A stretch of 32,350 nucleotides of DNA from contig JALHOU010000027.1 of the NCBI GenBank assembly GCA_022842825.1, forward strand, positions 1-32,350, written 5' to 3'. Each line of letters starts with the position of its first letter. Position 1 is the first letter of the stretch. A program made the position numbers and the translations under genes. The DNA comes from Rubrivivax sp. (GTDB lineage: Bacteria; Pseudomonadota; Gammaproteobacteria; Burkholderiales; Burkholderiaceae_C). The notes beneath the pieces are model-generated. The model was not told where the DNA came from. It saw only the letters and a list, made by a program, of their open reading frames with translations, and made no database searches. This document shows positions 14,285 through 24,847 of this stretch, piece by piece.

Positions 14285-14809
14285 TCAGGGCGTCGTCGAC
14301 AACAGCGGCGACGCCACCCCTGCCGGCGGCAGGCCTCTCTGGCCTTCGGTGAGGGAATGGCTCTGGAACAGGCCCGAGCGGTCGACAAAGAAGGTCTCCA
14401 CGAATCGGACCACGCCGCCCGGCAGCTTCGCCGGGACCGGGAACGGCGCTGCTCGGCGCAGCAAGGCCACCATCCAGGGCTCGATCGCCTCGGCCGCCGG
14501 CTTGCGCACGACGGCCATCGTGGCGATCTCGCCCTTCTCGTTGATCTCGGCCTCGACCGTGATGACGCCGTAGATCAGTGGCGGCAGCACGCCGAGGTAG
14601 ACGCGGCCCGGGAAGCACTCGTAGACGTGGCGCGCGGCCTCGAGCCGATACGCCTCCTCGGTGCTGCTGGCGGCCGGGGCCTGCGGCGGGCACTGGGGCG
14701 GCGGCACCATGTTGAACTGCGCCGCGGCCAGGGCCGGCAGCGCCAGCAGACACATGCCGGCCAGCACTGGCCGCGCCTTGCCGCGGGCACGCCACCTCAA
14801 CGAAGCCAC
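14285..14809 (-). CDS. Secreted TonB C-terminal-domain-like protein
   Basis: This protein of about 174 residues has a basic N-terminus, a hydrophobic stretch (MCLLALPALAAAQ) typical of a Sec signal peptide, a Pro-rich segment, then a domain with the TonB-C pattern. That pattern is ITVEAEINEKGEIATMAVVRKP followed by a helix and AAPFPVPAKLPGG. It lacks the N-terminal transmembrane anchor and long Pro-Lys spacer of true TonB, so it is probably a free periplasmic protein rather than an energy transducer. No ATG gives a good n-region; I propose the GTG at 14809, which overlaps the corA stop by 13 nt. The TTG at 14800 or ATG at 14755 are alternatives. It is likely co-transcribed with corA. Confidence 0.7.
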   Translation of the reverse strand: MASLRWRARGKARPVLAGMCLLALPALAAAQFNMVPPPQCPPQAPAASSTEEAYRLEAARHVYECFPGRVYLGVLPPLIYGVITVEAEINEKGEIATMAVVRKPAAEAIEPWMVALLRRAAPFPVPAKLPGGVVRFVETFFVDRSGLFQSHSLTEGQRGLPPAGVASPLLSTTP

Positions 14810-15771
14810 CCCTTGCGCCGGAAGTAGATGAACGGCGCGGCGACGCTGGCCACCATCAGCGCCAATGCGAAGGGGTAGCCCCAGGGCTGCTCGAGCTCGG
14901 GCATGGCGCGGAAGTTCATGCCGTAGATGCTGGCGATGAGCGTTGGCGGCAGCAGGGCGACGCTGGCCACCGAGAAGATCTTGATGATCTTGTTCTGGTT
15001 GATGTTGATGAAGCCGACCACGGCATCCATGAGGAAGTTGATCTTCTCGAACAGGAACGCGGTGTGCGAATCGAGCGAATCGATGTCGCGCAGGATCTGT
15101 CGCGCTTCCTCGAACTGCTCGGCGTTGAGCATGCGGCTGCGCATCATGAAGCTGAGCGCGCGCCGTGTGTCCATGACGTTGCGGCGGATGCGGCCGTTGA
15201 CATCCTCCTCGCGCGCGATGGCGGCCAGCACTTCGGCCGCCGTGCGGTCGTTGACATCCTCCTTCAGCACGCGCGCGCTGACGCGCTCGAGCTGGTCGTA
15301 GATGCCTTCGAGCGCGTCGGCACTGTACTCGGCGTCGGCGTCGTAGAGCTTGAGCAGCACGTCCTTGGCGTCCTCGATCAGCGCCGGGATGCGCCGCGCG
15401 CGCAGGCGCAGCAGGCGAAAGACCGGCAGGTCCTCGGCGTGGATCGAGAACAACACGTTGCGGTACAGGATAAACGCGACGCGCACGTTGCGCGGCGCCA
15501 CGTCGTCGTCGATGAGGAAGTCGGAACGGATGTGCAACTGGCCGCCGTCCTCTTCGTAGAAGCGCGCCGACTCCTCGATGTCGGACTCGACGATGTCGTC
15601 GGGGATCCCGAGTTCGAAGCGGCTCTTGATCCAGCCCTTCTCCTCGGCGCTCGGCGCTTCCAGGTCCACCCACACCGGCTGCACGTGCGCGAGCGACTGC
15701 GCCAGCTCCTCGGCGCTTTCGATCTCTTCCTGGAACAACCGGCCGTTGGCCAGCGTGAAGACGTTGAGCAT
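14797..15771 (-). CDS. corA: CorA-family divalent cation transporter
   Basis: This 324-residue protein has a large N-terminal cytoplasmic domain, a long stalk helix (about residues 205-270) and two C-terminal membrane helices. The diagnostic GMN motif (IASIYGMNF) caps the first membrane helix, and the C-terminus is basic (FRRKGWLR). CorA forms pentameric Mg2+ (also Co2+/Ni2+) channels in the inner membrane. I chose the ATG at 15771 (MLNVFTLANGRL); the track's extra 24 residues upstream lack family character. It lies 68 nt downstream of the HNOBA kinase gene on the same strand, so read-through from the sensory operon is possible. Functional linkage to NO sensing is not implied. Confidence 0.93.
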   Translation of the reverse strand: MLNVFTLANGRLFQEEIESAEELAQSLAHVQPVWVDLEAPSAEEKGWIKSRFELGIPDDIVESDIEESARFYEEDGGQLHIRSDFLIDDDVAPRNVRVAFILYRNVLFSIHAEDLPVFRLLRLRARRIPALIEDAKDVLLKLYDADAEYSADALEGIYDQLERVSARVLKEDVNDRTAAEVLAAIAREEDVNGRIRRNVMDTRRALSFMMRSRMLNAEQFEEARQILRDIDSLDSHTAFLFEKINFLMDAVVGFININQNKIIKIFSVASVALLPPTLIASIYGMNFRAMPELEQPWGYPFALALMVASVAAPFIYFRRKGWLR

Positions 15772-15839
15772 GGCGCGTGTCCGCTCGCTGCAAGGTGTCG
15801 GAGCCGGGGTCGACCGAGGCACCCTGTGCGCTGCGCCAT

Positions 15840-17498
15840 TCAAGGCAGCGGCATCACGGGATGTCGGTTCACCGTTGAGGGCTGGGGTCCAATCAAGGGC
15901 TCCGACTGTGGCGACGATGGATTATCCCATCGGCCTTGCGTGGCCGGCCCCGCCGCCGCCTCGGCCTGGAGCGGAAACCAAAGGGTCACGGTGGTTCCCT
16001 GCCCCTCCTTGCTGTCGATCTCGATGCGGCCGCCCTGGAGTTCCACAATCTCCTTGACCAGGCTCATGCCAAGGCCGGTGCCGGGGATGTTTCCACTCGG
16101 GTCGGCCCGGTAGAAGCGTTCGAACACGCGTGCCAGTTGCGGCGCACTCATGCCGATTCCCGGGTCGCGAACGCGCACACCCAGGGTGGGCTGGCTCTCG
16201 AGTCGCCCGGGCACGAGGTCGACCCTGATCTCCCCGCCCGCGGGCGAGTACTTCACCGCGTTCGAAAGCACATTGCTCAGGGCCTGAACCGTCTTGTCCC
16301 GATCCAGCCGGGCGGTGGCCGGGGCGGTGCCTGGCGTCCCCAATGACAGCGCGATGCGGTGCATGCGGTCGCCCACGTGCTGGGCTTGTACGGCCTCCTG
16401 CACCAGCTCGGTCAGGTCCACGCTCCTGCGCTGCAAGACCTGCCCCTGGCGCGACTCGATGCGCGCTAGATCGAGCAGGTCGTTCACCATCGTGATCAGG
16501 CGTCCGCACTGGCGGTGGATGGTCTGCAGCACGTCGCGTCGCCGCGTCTCGTCGATCGGGCGGTTGAGCAGGAGTTCGGTGAAGCCGAAGACGCTCACCA
16601 TCGGCGTGCGCAATTCGTGCGCGGCGGTTGTGAGGAATTCGCTCTTCATGCGGTCGACTTCGAACTCGGCGGTGATGTCGCGCAGATAGATGGCCAGCGC
16701 ACCGTCCTCGCTGCGCCGCGCGCTGATCTCCACCACGCACGCACGCGGGCGTGCCAGGCGCAGCACGCGGGAAGGCGTGTCGCCTCGTGCGGCCGCGCGT
16801 TCGGTGGGGTCTGCAGCGGCGCCACCGAACCAGGGGCCGCAGGGTTGCCCGGGTTCGAGCAAACCTGCCAGGTGCGCGTCCAACGCGGCCGCGGTCAGGC
16901 CCGGCAGCTGCTCGCGACGCATGTCGAGCATGCGAAGCAGCGCGCCATTGGCGTGCAGCACGTGTCCGCCCGGGTCGACCAGCACCATGCCGTTCTGGCC
17001 CAGCTCCAGGATGGTGTCCATCTGCTGCGAGCGCCGTCGGGCACGCGTTGCCATGCGCTGGGTGTCATCCATGGACGTCTGCATGGACCGGGCCAGAAGC
17101 AGCATCTCGCCCACGGCATCGTGGGGCGCGAAGTCATCGAACGCAAGGCCGTGCGCGCGCATCTCCTCCATCGACCCGAGCACCGGCGACACGAGGAGCA
17201 GGACGGTGCCGTCGTCGAACACCTCGCAACTGCCGCGCAGCGACAGCCGAGGCTGGCTCAACGACCTGAGCGTGCACAGGTCGGCACCATGCTCGCGCCA
17301 GGCCTGCACGCTGTCGGCGCCGCGCGGACGGCTGACCTCGAAGCAGCCGGCCAGCGGCATGCCCTCGTTGAGCGCTGGCATCGCCTTGCCCAGCGAGGCG
17401 CCACGGCCCCGAATGCGCAACTCGGCGTCCAGCGACAGGTGGAACGGGAACGCGCGCTCGAGTCGCGCGCCGGAAAGCGCGAGCACGGGTGCGTTCAC
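15840..17498 (-). CDS. HNOBA-PAS histidine kinase (H-NOX partner)
   Basis: This 552-residue soluble protein opens (about residues 12-150) with a heme-NO-binding-associated (HNOBA/H-NOXA) domain. FPFHLSLDAELRIRGRG, CFEVSRP, LLLVSPVLGSMEEM and FDDFAPHDAVGEMLLL match, segment by segment, what I remember of the H-NOXA domain of soluble guanylate cyclase beta-1. A coiled-coil helix follows, then a PAS domain (about 160-275) and a kinase core. The HisKA box is AAHELRTPM (phospho-acceptor His294), with NVLSNAVKYS (N box), RDPGIGM (G1) and GTGLGMSLVKE (G2). It starts with GTG inside the H-NOX stop codon (GTGA overlap), so the two are translationally coupled. I infer a kinase controlled by NO through the H-NOX protein. 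It has no receiver of its own; the CheY-like gene upstream is a candidate target. Confidence 0.9.
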   Translation of the reverse strand: MNAPVLALSGARLERAFPFHLSLDAELRIRGRGASLGKAMPALNEGMPLAGCFEVSRPRGADSVQAWREHGADLCTLRSLSQPRLSLRGSCEVFDDGTVLLLVSPVLGSMEEMRAHGLAFDDFAPHDAVGEMLLLARSMQTSMDDTQRMATRARRRSQQMDTILELGQNGMVLVDPGGHVLHANGALLRMLDMRREQLPGLTAAALDAHLAGLLEPGQPCGPWFGGAAADPTERAAARGDTPSRVLRLARPRACVVEISARRSEDGALAIYLRDITAEFEVDRMKSEFLTTAAHELRTPMVSVFGFTELLLNRPIDETRRRDVLQTIHRQCGRLITMVNDLLDLARIESRQGQVLQRRSVDLTELVQEAVQAQHVGDRMHRIALSLGTPGTAPATARLDRDKTVQALSNVLSNAVKYSPAGGEIRVDLVPGRLESQPTLGVRVRDPGIGMSAPQLARVFERFYRADPSGNIPGTGLGMSLVKEIVELQGGRIEIDSKEGQGTTVTLWFPLQAEAAAGPATQGRWDNPSSPQSEPLIGPQPSTVNRHPVMPLP

Positions 17499-18058
17499 GG
17501 CGCGATGGCCATCACTTCATGTCGCACGCGGAAGGTGTCGTGTGCGCCGGCATCGGTGCGGGCCGCTACATGCTCCACCTCGACTTGCTGGCCGAAGCGT
17601 TTGGCCAGTCCCTTCACGAGGCCAGCCACCATGGGCGCAAGGCCGGCGCGCTCCGACTCGTAGTGAAGCAGATACTCGTCCTCGTCGAGATCCTCGACGC
17701 GGAAGCGCGGCAGGCGCATCTTCGTGAAGATCGTCTCCACGCGGCCGTGCATGGCGTTCAGGTTGCCCAGGAACGAGCGCAGGTCGCTGCCGCCGGCGCT
17801 CATCAACTCGCCGTAGCCTTCGTCGGCGGTGTAGAGAACCCAATACTCGCCAAAAGCTTCGAGCACCTGGTGCGCCGTGAGGCCGAGCTCTTCGCTCACG
17901 GCACCGACGAGCTTGTAGGTGATGTCGTCGTGGTAGGGGCACATGGCGACGAAGCCGTCGCTGTCCACGCCGGCGCGGTGGCAGACCCGCTCCCAGGCGG
18001 CCTCGCCGCGCGCCGATACGACCAGCTGCTCGATGGCTCGGTTGACCAGTCCGTACAT
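17495..18058 (-). CDS. H-NOX heme nitric-oxide sensor protein
   Basis: This 187-residue stand-alone H-NOX (HNOB) protein starts MYGLVNRAIEQLV, as the family does. The proximal heme ligand is His104 in NAMHGRVETIF. The heme-propionate motif YxSxR is present as YESER (Tyr133, Ser135, Arg137). No tyrosine follows within about ten residues of that motif, where O2-binding H-NOX proteins place their distal-pocket Tyr; this suggests an NO-selective sensor. Known bacterial H-NOX proteins bind NO at ferrous heme and regulate an adjacent kinase or diguanylate cyclase. Here the adjacent gene is the HNOBA kinase, overlapping by 4 nt. The LOV-like kinase gene ends 38 nt upstream, so all three are probably co-transcribed. 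Confidence 0.95.
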   Translation of the reverse strand: MYGLVNRAIEQLVVSARGEAAWERVCHRAGVDSDGFVAMCPYHDDITYKLVGAVSEELGLTAHQVLEAFGEYWVLYTADEGYGELMSAGGSDLRSFLGNLNAMHGRVETIFTKMRLPRFRVEDLDEDEYLLHYESERAGLAPMVAGLVKGLAKRFGQQVEVEHVAARTDAGAHDTFRVRHEVMAIAP

Positions 18059-18096: not shown

Positions 18097-20733
18097 TCAG
18101 CCAGCGCTAAGCGCCGGTGCCGCGGGTTGGGGGGAGGCCGGCTCGACGGCCCACCACAGCGTGACGGCCGTTCCCCGGCCGAGTTCGCTGTGGATGTCGA
18201 CCCGGCCGCCGTGCAGCTCGACGATCTCCTTGACGAGGCACATGCCCAGTCCGGTGCCGGGGATGTTGCCGCTCGGGTCGGCCCGGTAGAAGCGCTCGAA
18301 CACCCGGGCGACCTGCTCCTCGCTCATTCCGACGCCGCGATCGACGATTCGCACGCCCAGCGCAGGCTGGCCGCGCAGCTCACCGTTGCGCGTGGTGACG
18401 ACGATCGGCCCGCCGCGGGGCGAGTACTTGACGGCGTTGGAGAGCACATTGGTCAGGGCTTGCTGCGTCTTGTCCTTGTCCACGAAGATGAGCGCGTCGC
18501 CGTCGGCCAGCTCGACGACGATGTCGTTGCCGCGAGGGCCGACCCGCAGCGGCTCGACCGCGCCGCCGACGAGCTCGGCAATGCCGCACTGGGTGCGCTT
18601 GATGTCCTTGCCTTGCCGGGCCTCGATGCGCGCCAGGTCGAGCAGTTCGTTGACCATGTGGATCAGCAAGGAGGCCTGGCGGTGGATCGTCTCGAGCATG
18701 TCGCGGCGCCGCTCTTCCGGCACTTGCCGTCGCAGCAACAGCTCGGTGAACCCGAATACGCTGACCATCGGCGTGCGCAGTTCGTGCGCTGCCGTGGTGA
18801 GGAACTCGCTCTTCATGCGGTCCACCTCGGTTTCGCGCGTGACGTCGCGGAAGAAGAGGATGGTCTCCACGTGCCCGTCGTGCGGGCTGCGCGCCACGCG
18901 GTCCAGCACGCGCCGCTCGGGCCGAGTGAGCAGCATCGTCTCGGGCGCCTGATCGCCTCCGGGGACCAGGACCTCGGCCAGCGGCCGCGGCTGCTGCGCC
19001 GGGCCGGCCTCGCACTGCGCGAGCATGCGCGCCTCGAATTCCTGCACACCGAGGCCGACGATGTCGGGGTCGGCGTGCCAGCCCGTCATCTCCAGGAAGG
19101 CGGGGTTGCAGTAGACGAGCTTCGAGTCACCGTCGAACACGACGAACCCATCCGGGCTCAACTCGAACACCGCGTTGAGGCGCGCGCTGCGCTCGGCGAT
19201 CGCCATGCGCGCGCGCTCGCGGTCGGTGACGTCGTTGAGCACGCCGACGTAGTGGCGCACGCTGCCGTCGGGCTCGCCCACGGGCGCGATGGCCAGCTCG
19301 TTGAAGAACAGGGTGCCGTCCTTGCGGTAGTTGCGCAGCACCACCTGCGCACTGCGCCGCTCGGCCACGGCACGGCGGAGCTCGTCGATCTCGGGCTGCT
19401 GCACGTCGTCGCGCTGCAGCAGGCTGCAATTGCGGCCGATCACGTCCATCGGCTCGAAGCCGGTGATGCGGTAGAAGGCCGGGTTGGCGTAGAAGACCGG
19501 CTGCGCGGGCATGCTGACGTCGGAAATGACGATGCCGTTGGTGGTGCACTCCAGCGCGCGGCCGTACAGGTGCACGAGGTCCATCGACATGCGCGCCTCG
19601 GTGAGGTCGCGCACGAGGGCGGCGTAGCGCGGCCCCTCAGAAGTGTCGATTCGCGTCAGCGACACCTCGGCCGGGAAGGGCGTGCCGTCGCTGCGCATGG
19701 CCTCGGTCTCGAAGCGGGCCACGTGCGACCGCGTCGAGCGCATGTACAGACCCTGCATGGTGCGCGTCTCGACCTCTTCGGCGGTGAGCCCGGGCAGCAT
19801 GGCCACCAGAGACAGGCCCACGGCCTGCTCGGGCTCGAGCCCGAACACTGAGCGCACGCCTGGATTGGCGATGCGCACACGGCACTCGCCGTCCATGCCG
19901 ATGAGCGCGTCGGGCACGGCGTTCAACAGCGCTGCCTGGGCCGTGTCGTGCTCGCGCAGGGCGGCCAGCTGCAAGTGCAGGGCGGTCGAAGCCTCGTTCA
20001 GCGCGTCGGCCAGCTCGGCCACCTCGCGGCTGCCGGTGTGGACCTCGATGCGTTGCCCGCTGCCGCCGGCCAGTCCGCGCGAGAAGCGCGCCAGACGCTG
20101 CAGCGGGCTGACCGCCCGGGCGACGAACCAGGAGGTCACCGCCAGCATCAGCAGGCCGACGAAGGCTGCGGCCAGCAGTACGTCGTTGCGCAGGTTGCTG
20201 AAGGGGTGTTCCTCGGCCGGCAACCGGTAGGCGATGCCCACGCTGCCCAGGGTGCTGCCCGGGCCGGCGCCCGCCCAGGCGCGCAGGGTGCCGTCGGCAT
20301 CCGCCGGGCCACCCTTGCCGGGGCCGGCCATGGTCGCTGCGGTGCCGCTCGACTCGGGCTGCGCGACGCGGCCGTCGTCCTTCTGGATCAGCCGCAGGAC
20401 GCTTCGGCCATCGCGGTCGACGACGTGCACCTCCCGGGTGGCGGGCATCGCGGCGATGTCGCGCAGGGCCTGCTCCAGCCCGGCGCGGTCGCCGGTCACC
20501 AGATGCCGCGCGGCCTGGCCGGCGGCCGCCTGCGCGAGCGCCTGGACCCAGGCCTGTTCCGAGGCAGCGGCCGCCTGCTGCAGCCGCCAGGTGGAAACCT
20601 GCGCCAGCACGGCCATCGCGATGGCCGTGACCAGGGCCAGCAGCCAGATGATCTGCAGGCGCAGCGGGCGGCCGCTCCGGCCGAGAGTGGCCGCCGGCGC
20701 GTCCGCAGGCCCTTCGAACACAGGGGAGGACAT
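18097..20733 (-). CDS. Membrane histidine kinase with HAMP and three PAS domains, one LOV-like
   Basis: This protein of about 878 residues has a TM helix at about 25-45, a periplasmic sensor segment, a second TM helix at about 180-200 and a HAMP linker (RAVSPLQRLARFSRGLAGG). PAS-1 contains VPDALIGMDGECRVRIANPG. PAS-2 is LOV-like: YANPAFYRITGFEP, IGRNCSLLQ with Cys436, and NYRKDGTLFFNELAIAPV. PAS-3 contains SPDGFVVFDGDSKLVYCNP. The kinase core has AAHELRTPM (His650), NVLSNAVKYS, VDRGVGM and GTGLGMCLVKE. LOV domains bind FMN and form a photo-adduct at this Cys; here the next residue is Ser rather than Arg, and the conserved Gln of GVQxD is Leu. I prefer the ATG at 20733, with GAGGTGG upstream, over the GTG at 20745. 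The core is nearly the same as that of the HNOBA kinase. Confidence 0.92.
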   Translation of the reverse strand: MSSPVFEGPADAPAATLGRSGRPLRLQIIWLLALVTAIAMAVLAQVSTWRLQQAAAASEQAWVQALAQAAAGQAARHLVTGDRAGLEQALRDIAAMPATREVHVVDRDGRSVLRLIQKDDGRVAQPESSGTAATMAGPGKGGPADADGTLRAWAGAGPGSTLGSVGIAYRLPAEEHPFSNLRNDVLLAAAFVGLLMLAVTSWFVARAVSPLQRLARFSRGLAGGSGQRIEVHTGSREVAELADALNEASTALHLQLAALREHDTAQAALLNAVPDALIGMDGECRVRIANPGVRSVFGLEPEQAVGLSLVAMLPGLTAEEVETRTMQGLYMRSTRSHVARFETEAMRSDGTPFPAEVSLTRIDTSEGPRYAALVRDLTEARMSMDLVHLYGRALECTTNGIVISDVSMPAQPVFYANPAFYRITGFEPMDVIGRNCSLLQRDDVQQPEIDELRRAVAERRSAQVVLRNYRKDGTLFFNELAIAPVGEPDGSVRHYVGVLNDVTDRERARMAIAERSARLNAVFELSPDGFVVFDGDSKLVYCNPAFLEMTGWHADPDIVGLGVQEFEARMLAQCEAGPAQQPRPLAEVLVPGGDQAPETMLLTRPERRVLDRVARSPHDGHVETILFFRDVTRETEVDRMKSEFLTTAAHELRTPMVSVFGFTELLLRRQVPEERRRDMLETIHRQASLLIHMVNELLDLARIEARQGKDIKRTQCGIAELVGGAVEPLRVGPRGNDIVVELADGDALIFVDKDKTQQALTNVLSNAVKYSPRGGPIVVTTRNGELRGQPALGVRIVDRGVGMSEEQVARVFERFYRADPSGNIPGTGLGMCLVKEIVELHGGRVDIHSELGRGTAVTLWWAVEPASPQPAAPALSAG

Positions 20734-20746
20734 GGGAGCGACCACC

Positions 20747-21118
20747 TCAGGCCGTGGCCATCAGGCGCTCGATGGTGTCGATGAGCTGCAGCGGGCTGAA
20801 GGGCTTGACAAGGTACTCGTCGGCTCCCGCGGCACGGCCGGCTTCCTGGTCGCGCGCCTGGCCGCGCGCGGTGAGCAGCACCACCTTCACGTGCCGCAGC
20901 TTGGGGTCGGCCTTGATCGCCTGGCACACCTGCAGCCCATCCATCTCGCCGGGCATCATCACGTCCAGCAGCACGATCGACGGCGTCACCGCGCGCGCCA
21001 TGCGCAGGCCGCCCGCGCCATCGCACGCCTCGTGGATCTCGTAGGCCTCGAACTCGAGGGTCATGCGGATGAGCTTGCGGATGTCGGACTGGTCTTCGAC
21101 GATGAGGACGCGGTTCAT
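20747..21118 (-). CDS. CheY-like single-domain response regulator
   Basis: This 123-residue receiver domain has no output domain. The acidic pocket is VEDQSD, the phospho-acceptor is Asp52 in IVLLDVMMPG, the switch Thr is in VVLLTARGQ and the conserved Lys is in YLVKPFSP. Single-domain receivers act as diffusible signals, allosteric partners or phosphorelay intermediates. Its stop codon lies 13 nt before the ATG of the LOV-like kinase, so that kinase, and possibly the HNOBA kinase, is a likely phosphodonor. I chose the ATG at 21118 (MNRVLIVEDQ); the track's 23 upstream residues look non-coding. An 82-nt gap separates it from the pseudokinase gene upstream. Confidence 0.92.
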   Translation of the reverse strand: MNRVLIVEDQSDIRKLIRMTLEFEAYEIHEACDGAGGLRMARAVTPSIVLLDVMMPGEMDGLQVCQAIKADPKLRHVKVVLLTARGQARDQEAGRAAGADEYLVKPFSPLQLIDTIERLMATA

Positions 21119-21200
21119 GTGTGCCTCCGGAGGGTTCGGGGTGTCGGTACGGTTGGCTTGTGTCGGCAGGCTCGGCGGGTCGCGCACCAGGGCGGTCGGC

Positions 21201-22331
21201 TCAACGGCTTTCTGCGCCGGCCGGCAACGCGGCGGGGGCGGCGTGCCTGCGGGCGCGGTTCATCAGCGCGGCCAGGTCGCTGGCGTAACGCTGCGCCTGG
21301 GCGATGTCCAGTTGCGGGGCGGCATCGCGATGCGGCGCACCGGTGGGCAGTTCGATGAGGAAGTTGCGTTGGCCGTCCTCGTGCTCCTCGCGCAGCTGGC
21401 CGCCGTGCAGCGAGACGATGTGCTGGCACAGCTTGAGGCCGATCTGCTCGCGCGCGCCGGCCACAGGCTGCTTGGGCGTTGCCACCTTGGCACGCGCAGG
21501 CATCGGCACGCCGGCCGCGGCGCTGTTGCGGGCGGCGAAGACGCCGCAATTGCGGAACACGATGAGCGCACGCGCGCCCATCTGGCGGTGCTCGATCTCG
21601 AGCAGGCTGCCGCGCTGCGTGGCGCGCACGGCAGCGTCCAGACACTCGGCGAACACGCGCTTGAGCCAGCGCTCGCTGCCGTACAGGGTGGCCAGGCTGT
21701 CGGCGCCGGTCTGGGCGTGGAAGCGGACCTTCACGGCGCGGTCCATCGCCAGCGGCTCGATCTCGGCCCACACGTGCTGCAGCATCGGCCACAGCTCGAT
21801 GCGGTCGTTGGCCAGCAGGGTGCCGCTGCCCCAGAGGCTGGCCAGGTCCACGAGCTTGTCCACGACGTCGAGCACCTGGCCCACGCCATCGGCCAGCGCC
21901 TCGATCTCGCCCGCGCCGGAGTGCGACTGCACGAGTTCCAGCGCCGCGCGCGCGCCGCGCAGCGGCTCGCGCACATCCGTGCGGATGGCCTGCATCAGGT
22001 TGTCGAAGCCGGAGCCGTCGTCCTGGCCGATCTGCGGCCCGATGAGGACGAAGGCATCGTCCTGCGCCAGGCCCGGGATGACGCGGCACTTCATCTCGAC
22101 GTTGCTGGCCCCTGCGCCGACCACTCCGGCGGCAGCAACGGCGCGCGGCACACGACCGGCCACCGACTGCGAGACCGCCTTCGCGAGGTCCGGGTCGTAC
22201 AGTTTGCGTCCGGGCGCAAGCCCGGTGCGGGCCGCCGCCTCGCCGTTGGCGTAGCGCACGATGCCTTCGCGCGTCACCCACAGCAGCCCTGGGCGCAGGT
22301 TCTCGAGCAGTTCGGTCAGTGATGCATGCAT
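21201..22331 (-). CDS. PAS-containing degenerate histidine kinase (pseudokinase)
   Basis: This 376-residue soluble protein has a PAS-like N-terminus (LLWVTREGIVRYANGEAAA), a dimerisation-type helix pair and an HATPase-like fold, all visible by layout, but the catalytic signatures are lost. Where a kinase has SHELRTPL this protein has RTDVREPLRG, with Thr in place of His. The N box reads FAECLDAAVRAT without the Asn residues, and the DxGxG motif is replaced by FRNCGVF. Only the final GLKLCQHIVSLHGGQL resembles the G2 region. I infer a non-catalytic sensor or scaffold that could regulate the neighbouring receiver or kinases. The ATG at 22331 has AGGAG at ideal spacing; the track starts 7 codons earlier. 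Confidence 0.75.
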   Translation of the reverse strand: MHASLTELLENLRPGLLWVTREGIVRYANGEAAARTGLAPGRKLYDPDLAKAVSQSVAGRVPRAVAAAGVVGAGASNVEMKCRVIPGLAQDDAFVLIGPQIGQDDGSGFDNLMQAIRTDVREPLRGARAALELVQSHSGAGEIEALADGVGQVLDVVDKLVDLASLWGSGTLLANDRIELWPMLQHVWAEIEPLAMDRAVKVRFHAQTGADSLATLYGSERWLKRVFAECLDAAVRATQRGSLLEIEHRQMGARALIVFRNCGVFAARNSAAAGVPMPARAKVATPKQPVAGAREQIGLKLCQHIVSLHGGQLREEHEDGQRNFLIELPTGAPHRDAAPQLDIAQAQRYASDLAALMNRARRHAAPAALPAGAESR

Positions 22332-22359
22332 GTCGGTCTCCTTGGAACGCATGATGCCA

Positions 22360-22419: not shown

Positions 22420-24042
22420 TCAGCCGAGCGTGAGCGTGTCGCCGGTGCGGCCGGGCACGCGCACGTGGAAGGCGCTGCCGCCGCCGCGGGCGTTCTCGGC
22501 GTGGATGCGGCCGCCGTGCGCCTCGACGATCTTGCGGCTGATGGTCAGGCCGAGACCGGTGCCGCCCGAACCGTCCTTCGTCTTGCTCGACTGCACGAAG
22601 GCCTGGAAGATGGCTTCCAGCTCGGCTGGCGGGATGCCCGGGCCGTGGTCGCGGACGCAGACGTGGACCTGGTTCTCGGCATCGATGTCCCCGGTGACCT
22701 CGATCGTCTGCCCGGGCGGCGAGAAGCGGATGGCGTTGGCGAGCAGGTTGCGCAGCACCTGCTGGTAGCGCAGCGGGTCGACCTTGGCCACCATCGGCGC
22801 CTCGCACAGGCCGAGCTCGACGTGCAGGCGGCGCTCGGCCAGCAGCGGCTGCAGCTCGCGCAGCACCTCGCGCACGAGGGTGCGCACGTCGATGCGCTCG
22901 AGGTGGAAGGTGCCCACGGCGCTCTCGATCTTGGACACGTCGAGCAGGTCGTTCACCAGAGCCAGCATGCGCTCGCCGGCGGCGTGAATGTCGCCGAACA
23001 TGGCGCCGAGCCGGGGCTCCTTGCTGCGCAGGTGGCCGAGCTCGGAGAAGCCGATGATCGACTGCAGCGGCGTGCGCAACTCGTGGCTGATGTTGGCGAT
23101 GAACTCGCTCTTGGCGCGCGAGGCCTCCTCGGCGATGTCGCGCGCCTCGCGCACGGCGCGCTCCGCGTCGCGAAACTCGCTCACGTCCATGAAGGCCACC
23201 AGCACGCCGGCCGGCCGGCCGTCCGGGCCGGGCACGGCGGCCTTGCTGATGGCCACGTCGCGACGCGAGCCGTCGCGGTGCAGGAGCGAGGCCTCGTAGC
23301 GCGCGCTGCCTCCCAGGCGCAGCAGCTCGCGGTCGCGCACGTCGTGCAGGACGGCTTCCTCCGCGGACAGGTAGTCGCGCGCGCGCCGGCCGGCCACCTC
23401 GGCGCGGCGGCGGCCGGTGAACTCCTCCCAGGCCTGGTTCACCGACTGGTAGCGGTTGTCGGCATCGAGCATCGACACCGGCAGCGGCATCACCTCGAGC
23501 AGCTGGCCGATGAAGTCCAGCTGCGACTGCAGGCGCTGGCGCGCCTGCTCGCGCTCGGTCACGTCGGCGGCGCTGCCGGCATAGCCAACGAGGCGTTGCC
23601 CGGCCTTCAGCGGCAGCACGGCGACCTCGAAGCGCCGCCAGCGGCCGGCCTGCCCCATCTGCACGACGGCCGTACGAGGTCCTTCGCCACCGCCGAAGAG
23701 GGCCCGTGTGGCGGCGGCGGACTCGGGCGCCACCCAGTCGGCCAACGGGCGGCCGATCGCCGCGACCTCCTGCCCGCCGGTGGCCGCGCCCCAACGGGCG
23801 TTGACGAACGTCAGGCGGCCCTGCGCGTCGGTCCGGAACAGCAGCGCCTGGACGCTCTCGACGATGGCACTCAGGTCGCGCTCGCGCGCCGCGACGGCTG
23901 CCAGCGCCTGCTCGCGCGAACGCAAGCGCCGCAAGGCCCACGCCGCCAGCCCGCTGACGAGCAGCAGCGCCAGCGGCGCCGCCCACGACGCGGCGGCCTC
24001 GAGGGCACCGGCCAGGGCGAGGCCGGGGTCTGTGGCGGCCAT
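22420..24042 (-). CDS. PAS-PAS sensor histidine kinase
   Basis: This 540-residue kinase has one N-terminal membrane helix (about residues 18-38), a coiled-coil linker and PAS-1 (about 55-170; SIVESVQALLFRTDAQGRLTF). PAS-2 covers about 180-295, with VMPLPVSMLDADNRYQSVN and a PAC segment ending AFMDVSE. Then come HisKA (NISHELRTPLQSI; His320) and HATPase_c (NLLANAIRFS, RDHGPGIP, GGTGLGLTISRKI). All catalytic boxes are intact. There is no receiver or Hpt domain in the same polypeptide. It follows the HD-GYP gene after 7 nt, so the two form an operon. The divergent receiver-Hpt and HTH-receiver genes would supply the missing relay modules. The signal is unknown. Confidence 0.93.
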   Translation of the reverse strand: MAATDPGLALAGALEAAASWAAPLALLLVSGLAAWALRRLRSREQALAAVAARERDLSAIVESVQALLFRTDAQGRLTFVNARWGAATGGQEVAAIGRPLADWVAPESAAATRALFGGGEGPRTAVVQMGQAGRWRRFEVAVLPLKAGQRLVGYAGSAADVTEREQARQRLQSQLDFIGQLLEVMPLPVSMLDADNRYQSVNQAWEEFTGRRRAEVAGRRARDYLSAEEAVLHDVRDRELLRLGGSARYEASLLHRDGSRRDVAISKAAVPGPDGRPAGVLVAFMDVSEFRDAERAVREARDIAEEASRAKSEFIANISHELRTPLQSIIGFSELGHLRSKEPRLGAMFGDIHAAGERMLALVNDLLDVSKIESAVGTFHLERIDVRTLVREVLRELQPLLAERRLHVELGLCEAPMVAKVDPLRYQQVLRNLLANAIRFSPPGQTIEVTGDIDAENQVHVCVRDHGPGIPPAELEAIFQAFVQSSKTKDGSGGTGLGLTISRKIVEAHGGRIHAENARGGGSAFHVRVPGRTGDTLTLG

Positions 24043-24049
24043 CGCGGCC

Positions 24050-24847
24050 TCAGGCCTGCGCGGGCTCGGGCAGCCCGTCGCGCAAGGCGCCGAAGCGGGG
24101 CCGCGCGGCGTTGATGCGGTCTCGCAGCGCCATGAAGCTGGGCGCCTCGGCCAGGAAGGCGTCGACCAGGCGCGGGTCGAAGGCGCGCGCGCGCTGCGCG
24201 GCGAGCATCTCGAGTGCCTTCTCGTCGCTGAAGGCCCTGCGATAGCAGCGATCCATCGTCAGCGCATCGAAGAAATCGACGACGGCCACCAGCCGGCCGC
24301 TGAGCGGGATCGCCCCGCCGGCGAGGCGGTGTGGATAGCCGCTGCCGTCCCACCGCTCGTGGTGGGTGAGCGCGACGTCCGCGGCCATGTGGAACAGCGG
24401 GATGCGCGACTGCCCGAGGATGCCAGCGCCAAGCACCGGGTGCTGGTCCATCACGGCGCGCTCGTCGGCCAGGAGCGGGCCGGGCTTCTTGAGCACGTCG
24501 TCGGGGATGCCGATCTTGCCCACGTCGTGCAGCGGCGCGGCCTGGCGCAGCATCGCCGCCTCGTCGGCCTTGCGGCCGACGGCCAGCGCCAGGGCCTCGG
24601 CCAGGAAGCCGATGCGCACGATGTGCACGCCGGTCTCGTCGTCGCGCGTCTCGGCCGCCAGCGCCAGCCTGAAGAGCGCCTCGTGATGCGCCCGCGCGAC
24701 CTCCTGCAGCGCCTCGTTGCGCTCCCGGTACAGGCGGCGCAGGTCGGTGACCAGCCGCATCATCTGGCCGAAAGCGCCGGGATCGAAGCAGGTGTCGCCC
24801 GGCGCCTCGGCGTGGGCCGCGAGCTCATGTTCGGTCGTCAGCATCAT
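24050..24847 (-). CDS. HD-GYP domain c-di-GMP phosphodiesterase
   Basis: This protein of about 265 residues is almost entirely HD-GYP domain after a coiled-coil-like N-terminus (LYRERNEALQEVARAHHEALF). It carries LAAETRDDETGVHIVRIG, PLHDVGKIGIPD (HD at 107-108), HHERWDGSGYP (HHE at 162-164, GYP at 170-172) and VAVVDFFDALT. All metal and substrate motifs are canonical, unlike the HD-GYP at the window start. It has no receiver of its own, so control may come through protein contact with its neighbours. The start is ATG 24847 or the adjacent ATG 24844. It is the first gene of the HD-GYP/kinase operon and divergent from the HTH-receiver gene across a 108-nt promoter region. Confidence 0.95.
   Translation of the reverse strand: MMLTTEHELAAHAEAPGDTCFDPGAFGQMMRLVTDLRRLYRERNEALQEVARAHHEALFRLALAAETRDDETGVHIVRIGFLAEALALAVGRKADEAAMLRQAAPLHDVGKIGIPDDVLKKPGPLLADERAVMDQHPVLGAGILGQSRIPLFHMAADVALTHHERWDGSGYPHRLAGGAIPLSGRLVAVVDFFDALTMDRCYRRAFSDEKALEMLAAQRARAFDPRLVDAFLAEAPSFMALRDRINAARPRFGALRDGLPEPAQA

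Follow-up and report, generated by a model that had tools for sequence, protein, structure and literature searches.

The window, a stretch of 32,350 nucleotides from Rubrivivax sp., carries on its minus strand a gene for a stand-alone H-NOX (HNOB) protein (17495..18058) and, directly downstream on the same strand, a gene for an HNOBA-PAS histidine kinase (15840..17498). The two ORFs lie in different frames, and H-NOX and HNOBA do not belong to one polypeptide. The genes share four bases, GTGA (17495..17498), as an earlier note on this DNA had described; these contain both the GTG start of the kinase gene and the TGA stop of the H-NOX gene. A 4-nt overlap is shared by 16 of 79 related pairs. 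As observed, the pair is real and far beyond chance. Coordinates given below for features of the two proteins are all on the minus strand.

The 187-aa H-NOX protein is a predicted NO sensor (Pfam HNOB, E 6.2e-49). Its nearest solved structure is that of the Nostoc Alr2278 H-NOX, with which it shares 49% identity. The heme-associated residues H104, P117, Y133, S135, and R137 are all intact. The proximal heme ligand, His104 (17747..17749), is invariant in the 80 aligned H-NOX proteins; in the YxSxR heme-propionate motif (YESER, residues 133–137, 17648..17662), the Tyr and the Arg are likewise invariant and the Ser is found in 77 of 80. The earlier reading of His104 and YESER as intact therefore holds. 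In direct searches of the whole source genome, HNOB matched this one protein and HNOBA one protein, the kinase of the window. A scan of viral contigs found no relative. Elsewhere, an H-NOX adjoining an HNOBA kinase (L013:692-1249) retains the heme His, but its YxSxR positions read CSSSA, with neither the Tyr nor the Arg.

The kinase is 552 aa long and matches Pfam HNOBA (62.8 bits), HisKA (63.6 bits), and HATPase_c (97.9 bits). The HNOBA domain, with a PAS-like fold, spans approximately residues 1–127 (17118..17498) and is modeled by AlphaFold2 with pLDDT >85 from residue 11. The first 158 residues align with residues 215–369 of the beta-1 subunit of human soluble guanylate cyclase (sGC; E 7e-5) and, weakly, with 2P04, the crystal structure of the HNOBA domain of a Nostoc punctiforme kinase (E 0.065). 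The earlier note had recognized HNOBA from the collinear segments FPFHLSLD, FEVSRP, LLLVSP, and APHDAVGEMLLL and had proposed a profile search of the N-terminus. All these segments fall within the sGC beta-1 alignment, and the profile search is significant, with two collinear stretches scoring well over the curated Pfam cut-off of 23.4 bits, which confirms the assignment.

Following HNOBA, a signaling helix, or coiled coil, is predicted at residues 128–166 (17001..17117); it forms one unbroken helix in the AlphaFold2 model and lies within the C-terminal part of the HNOBA match. A PAS domain may occupy residues 167–275 (16674..17000), as suggested by weak sub-cut-off matches to PAS_4, PAS_8, and PAS_7 between residues 160 and 280 and by a PAS-like pattern of strands and helices in the model. 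The DHp/HisKA domain (residues 276–350, 16449..16673; E 1.8e-17) contains the phospho-acceptor His294 in the motif AAHELRTP, and this residue is nearly invariant. The catalytic HATPase_c domain covers residues 358–511 (15966..16427; E 6.2e-28), with N413, D445, G447, and G473–G477 conserved. With both kinase domains above cut-off and H294, N413, D445, and G447 conserved, the protein is catalytically complete as judged by sequence. The model, built from a 27-sequence alignment (mean pLDDT 84.7), shows in succession an HNOBA-type alpha/beta domain, a long helix, a PAS-like domain, the DHp helices, the ATPase domain, and a disordered tail. When the entire kinase served as the query of a fold search, the top 50 matches were mainly histidine kinases and phytochrome-type sensors and included no sGC chain, a result that is uninformative on HNOBA. 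The order of modules in animal sGC, which the earlier note had seen here, is borne out: H-NOX is followed by HNOBA, the helix, and the output. As it had also claimed, a histidine kinase stands in place of the cyclase, since HisKA and HATPase_c are matched and the window kinase has no class III cyclase domain.

Further signaling genes lie upstream. On the minus strand at 18097..20745, a multi-PAS histidine kinase gene encodes three PAS stretches, HisKA, and HATPase_c. Its product is paralogous in its core to the HNOBA kinase: the two proteins are 50% identical over 370 aa and 65% identical in the kinase core, and their H-box helices are near-identical. Across loci the cores of the two kinases intermingle and form no separate clades, in a tree that is poorly supported and too unresolved to date the duplication. 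This intermingling suggests repeated duplication or gene conversion. The next minus-strand genes encode a receiver-only, CheY-like response regulator (20747..21187; Pfam Response_reg, E 6e-26), a kinase-like protein that has a weak HATPase match and no HisKA match in Pfam and is a probable pseudokinase (21201..22352), another PAS kinase (22420-24042), and an HD-GYP-type phosphodiesterase (24050..24847; HD_5, E 2.5e-31), which is a possible output of the system.

Homologues of the receiver, 64–83% identical, adjoin related H-NOX/HNOBA pairs. Together with the probable pseudokinase, the receiver recurs at the H-NOX/HNOBA loci of Rubrivivax albus, Ideonella paludis, Parachitinimonas, Chitinibacter, and other relatives; the pseudokinase is kept beside the receiver at loci L034, L036/L074, L037/L081, L039, L040, L041, L078, and L080. 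The two genes (20747-22352 in the window) thus travel together with H-NOX/HNOBA pairs in Burkholderiales and Chitinibacteraceae. An HD-GYP homologue is found near the pair in four loci (L040, L041, L074, and L078). On the other side, the kinase gene overlaps at its 3' end with a gene for a CorA-type transporter (14797-15843), and I. paludis (L037, L081) has an 81% identical CorA gene at the matching place.

We examined the neighborhoods of the closest 80 of 407 H-NOX relatives found in named genomes by a scan of the genomes of 84,980 species. An HNOBA protein, identified by profile, is encoded directly downstream on the same strand in 79 of these 80, a figure that covers the closest relatives and so describes the clade of the window H-NOX rather than all H-NOX proteins. 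In the 80th case, the contig ends at the H-NOX gene. The best 80 of the 407 span Burkholderiales, Chitinibacteraceae, many cyanobacteria including N. punctiforme, Nannocystis, Planctomycetota, Verrucomicrobia, Anaerolineales, Kineosporia, Bacteroidota, and Gemmatimonadetes. If the window kinase is added to the 79 HNOBA proteins, HNOBA is present in 80 of 80, HisKA in 74, HATPase_c in 73, Response_reg in 15, Hpt in 5, and GGDEF and EAL in 4 each. The H-NOX and HNOBA distances across pairs are strongly correlated (mirror-tree r = 0.95; shuffled maximum 0.24), which indicates that the two are inherited as a unit; this agreement is evidence of co-inheritance, not of contact. Some loci contain additional HNOBA genes. 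In a betaproteobacterial locus, two close HNOBA proteins (L043:8801-9265 and L043:12914-13378), one with a kinase-like C-terminus and the other with similarity to GGDEF/EAL, accompany a single detected H-NOX. In the cyanobacterial loci L098 and L128, an extra HNOBA protein of approximately 940 aa is encoded just upstream of H-NOX, in addition to the one downstream.

We also surveyed 399 evenly sampled Pseudomonadota genomes. They contain 16 core HNOBA genes, of which 14 lie next to HNOB; of the two others, one is at a contig edge and one is without HNOB. Bacterial HNOBA genes reportedly always neighbor an HNOB gene, a statement attributed to Iyer, Anantharaman and Aravind in 2003. Conversely, 13 of 67 stand-alone HNOB matches, counted in short open frames of the same genomes, have an HNOBA neighbor. 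The Pfam HNOBA model PF07701 runs into the signaling helix, and its last 40–70 positions match proteins devoid of core HNOBA, some of them above cut-off, so HNOBA counts from that model alone are inflated. Matches restricted to profile positions ~149–216, found in ten places, were rejected as signaling-helix matches; none shares a contig with an HNOB match. Closer to home, the pair is patchy: it occurs in 2 of 80 genomes from the window's genus and in about 4% of 301 from its family, a distribution that fits loss or horizontal transfer.

These counts bear on how unusual the locus is. To the knowledge of the earlier note, most of the described partners of bacterial H-NOX proteins (HnoK-type kinases and cyclases) do not belong to the HNOBA family. 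That view stands for the HnoK-type kinases of other clades and is wrong for the clade of the window H-NOX, where pairing with HNOBA is the normal arrangement and has long been published. The rarity of the pair, which a survey of H-NOX neighbors was to establish, is ruled out both by the 399 Pseudomonadota genomes and by the best 80 of 407 relatives.

HNOB and HNOBA were described in 2004 as common to animal NO receptors and several bacterial signaling proteins (PMC549065, citing Iyer, Anantharaman and Aravind 2003); HNOBA had received its name, as a domain of animal sGC and bacterial signaling proteins, in 2003. By 2008, the HNOBA (H-NOXA) domain of an N. punctiforme signal-transduction histidine kinase had been solved and is presented as a dimeric PAS fold in PMC2576301, where the Nostoc H-NOX is said to come "from a histidine kinase operon". 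This HNOBA domain is 35% identical to sGC beta-1 (PMC2828450). The H-NOX/HNOBA pairing is therefore long published (PMC549065; PMC2576301; PMC2828450; PMC8196705).

The closest known counterpart is the system represented by Nostoc Alr2278 and the N. punctiforme HNOBA kinase (PDB 2P04, 2P08), in which a stand-alone H-NOX is likewise followed on the same strand by an HNOBA histidine kinase with the same domain families; the N. punctiforme genome locus (L130) is arranged as in the window. Compared with Nostoc, the window kinase has an extra putative PAS domain between HNOBA and DHp, the pair has a 4-nt gene overlap, and the neighborhood differs by its CheY-like receiver, pseudokinase, HD-GYP protein, and second kinase. 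Animal sGC shares the homologous H-NOX, HNOBA, and coiled-coil modules in the same order, whereas the window encodes two separate proteins with a histidine kinase output and no alpha/beta cyclase heterodimer. In the HnoX/HnoK-type systems of Shewanella, Vibrio, and Caulobacter, an H-NOX gene also adjoins a histidine kinase gene, with c-di-GMP or another two-component output; the window kinase differs in having HNOBA, which most stand-alone HNOB genes of the 399 Pseudomonadota genomes lack as a neighbor. Finally, in Dinoroseobacter shibae H-NOX/Dgc1 and other H-NOX/GGDEF pairs, H-NOX is also encoded beside an output protein, which in the window is a histidine kinase instead. HNOBA-GGDEF-EAL proteins exist within the window H-NOX clade as well (L089).

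In sGC, residues R258, R305, and K307 of the beta-1 HNOBA domain meet D102 and D106 of the H-NOX helix alpha-F (PMC8196705). The position equivalent to R258 is Arg in 71 and Lys in 5 of the 80 HNOBA proteins (R57 in the window), and that of K307 is Lys in 47 and Arg in 31 (R88 in the window). As these equivalents are conserved, a direct H-NOX/HNOBA contact is plausible. On the H-NOX side, the D102 equivalent is Asp in 59 of 80 and Asn101 in the window, and the D106 equivalent is Asp in only 3 of 80 and Gly105 in the window; these weak counterparts count against docking. We also modeled a linked pair with AlphaFold2, using the I. paludis homologue (L081), in which the genes are in frame and the stop was read through (126 rows). 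Both domains are well folded (pLDDT 88, pTM 0.64), with a relative placement that is not trusted. The best matches of the model, over both domains, are sGC beta chains, with a TM of ~0.5–0.56 (0.54–0.56 to the human chains), only slightly more than the 0.47 of H-NOX alone. Its domain placement thus differs from that in sGC, although the model, a single chain in which HNOBA is not dimeric, is a poor test.

Our best reading is that the locus encodes a Nostoc-type H-NOX/HNOBA-kinase two-component sensor for NO, an arrangement already known and not surprising. We hold with good confidence that H-NOX would sense NO through its heme, dock on HNOBA, and control the kinase. Heme would be bound via His104, and two H-NOX molecules would probably flank an HNOBA dimer as in sGC. 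Breaking or weakening of the Fe-His bond by NO would shift helix alpha-F, and this shift would be relayed through the HNOBA/PAS dimer and the signaling helix to the DHp domain, changing autophosphorylation of His294. Whereas sGC is activated by NO, NO-bound H-NOX would most likely lower kinase activity here, by analogy with the H-NOX/kinase systems studied, and we hold only loosely to inhibition as the more likely sign. In those systems, NO-bound H-NOX usually inhibits kinase autophosphorylation, with the exception of Caulobacter, where it does not (PMC12329717), so NO control is not to be taken for granted. The phosphate would probably pass to the adjoining CheY-like receiver, and a likely output is that the HD-GYP protein encoded nearby turns over c-di-GMP, as the recurrence of these genes beside the pair suggests.

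The control of the kinase by H-NOX might instead respond to redox state, heme loading, or CO, as in Caulobacter, where H-NOX is activated by cysteine/zinc oxidation and not by NO (PMC12329717). Two loci from one genus of the window's family lend this some weight: there, a degenerate H-NOX relative (L041:8758-9312, HNOB E 0.008; L040:8714-9274) without the proximal His or YxSxR lies beside a retained HNOBA kinase, which implies that the pair can be maintained in the absence of heme sensing. These degenerate proteins recall the H-NOX domain of sGC alpha subunits, which has no heme. However, the window H-NOX retains every heme motif. The zinc-site cysteines sit in the C-terminal half, whereas the window protein has only two cysteines, C26 and C40, neither of them in that half. 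It also groups with Alr2278, which was crystallized with NO and CO (PMC2576301). We consider a signal other than NO unlikely.

H-NOX could also act on the multi-PAS kinase, alone or as a heterodimer with the HNOBA kinase, and the latter would then be a secondary partner or scaffold. The near-identical H-box helices, the similarity of the cores, and their mixing in the poorly supported tree would allow it; yet the multi-PAS kinase is missing from most related loci, for example, R. albus L034/L076 and L036/L074, whereas the HNOBA kinase is present in 79 of the best 80 of 407. This makes such a target rather improbable. It is equally doubtful that, in this lineage, the H-NOX/HNOBA kinase works in a larger module with the pseudokinase, receiver, HD-GYP protein, and second kinase, in which the kinases may form mixed dimers with an NO input on only one partner; such dimers would be the two-component counterpart of the alpha/beta heterodimer of sGC and would feed c-di-GMP. 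That the locus represents a split system of the guanylate-cyclase type that is rare or novel is very improbable despite its sGC-like module order, as such pairs were published between 2003 and 2008 (PMC549065; PMC2576301; PMC2828450) and are found in many phyla, and the 24 families to which the 80 HNOBA proteins have matches include no class III nucleotide-cyclase domain.

Read as a Nostoc-type NO sensor, the locus is one further example of a known pairing, which is general for this H-NOX clade and extends over many phyla. Such two-protein systems would be convenient models for the transfer of the NO signal from H-NOX to HNOBA in sGC.
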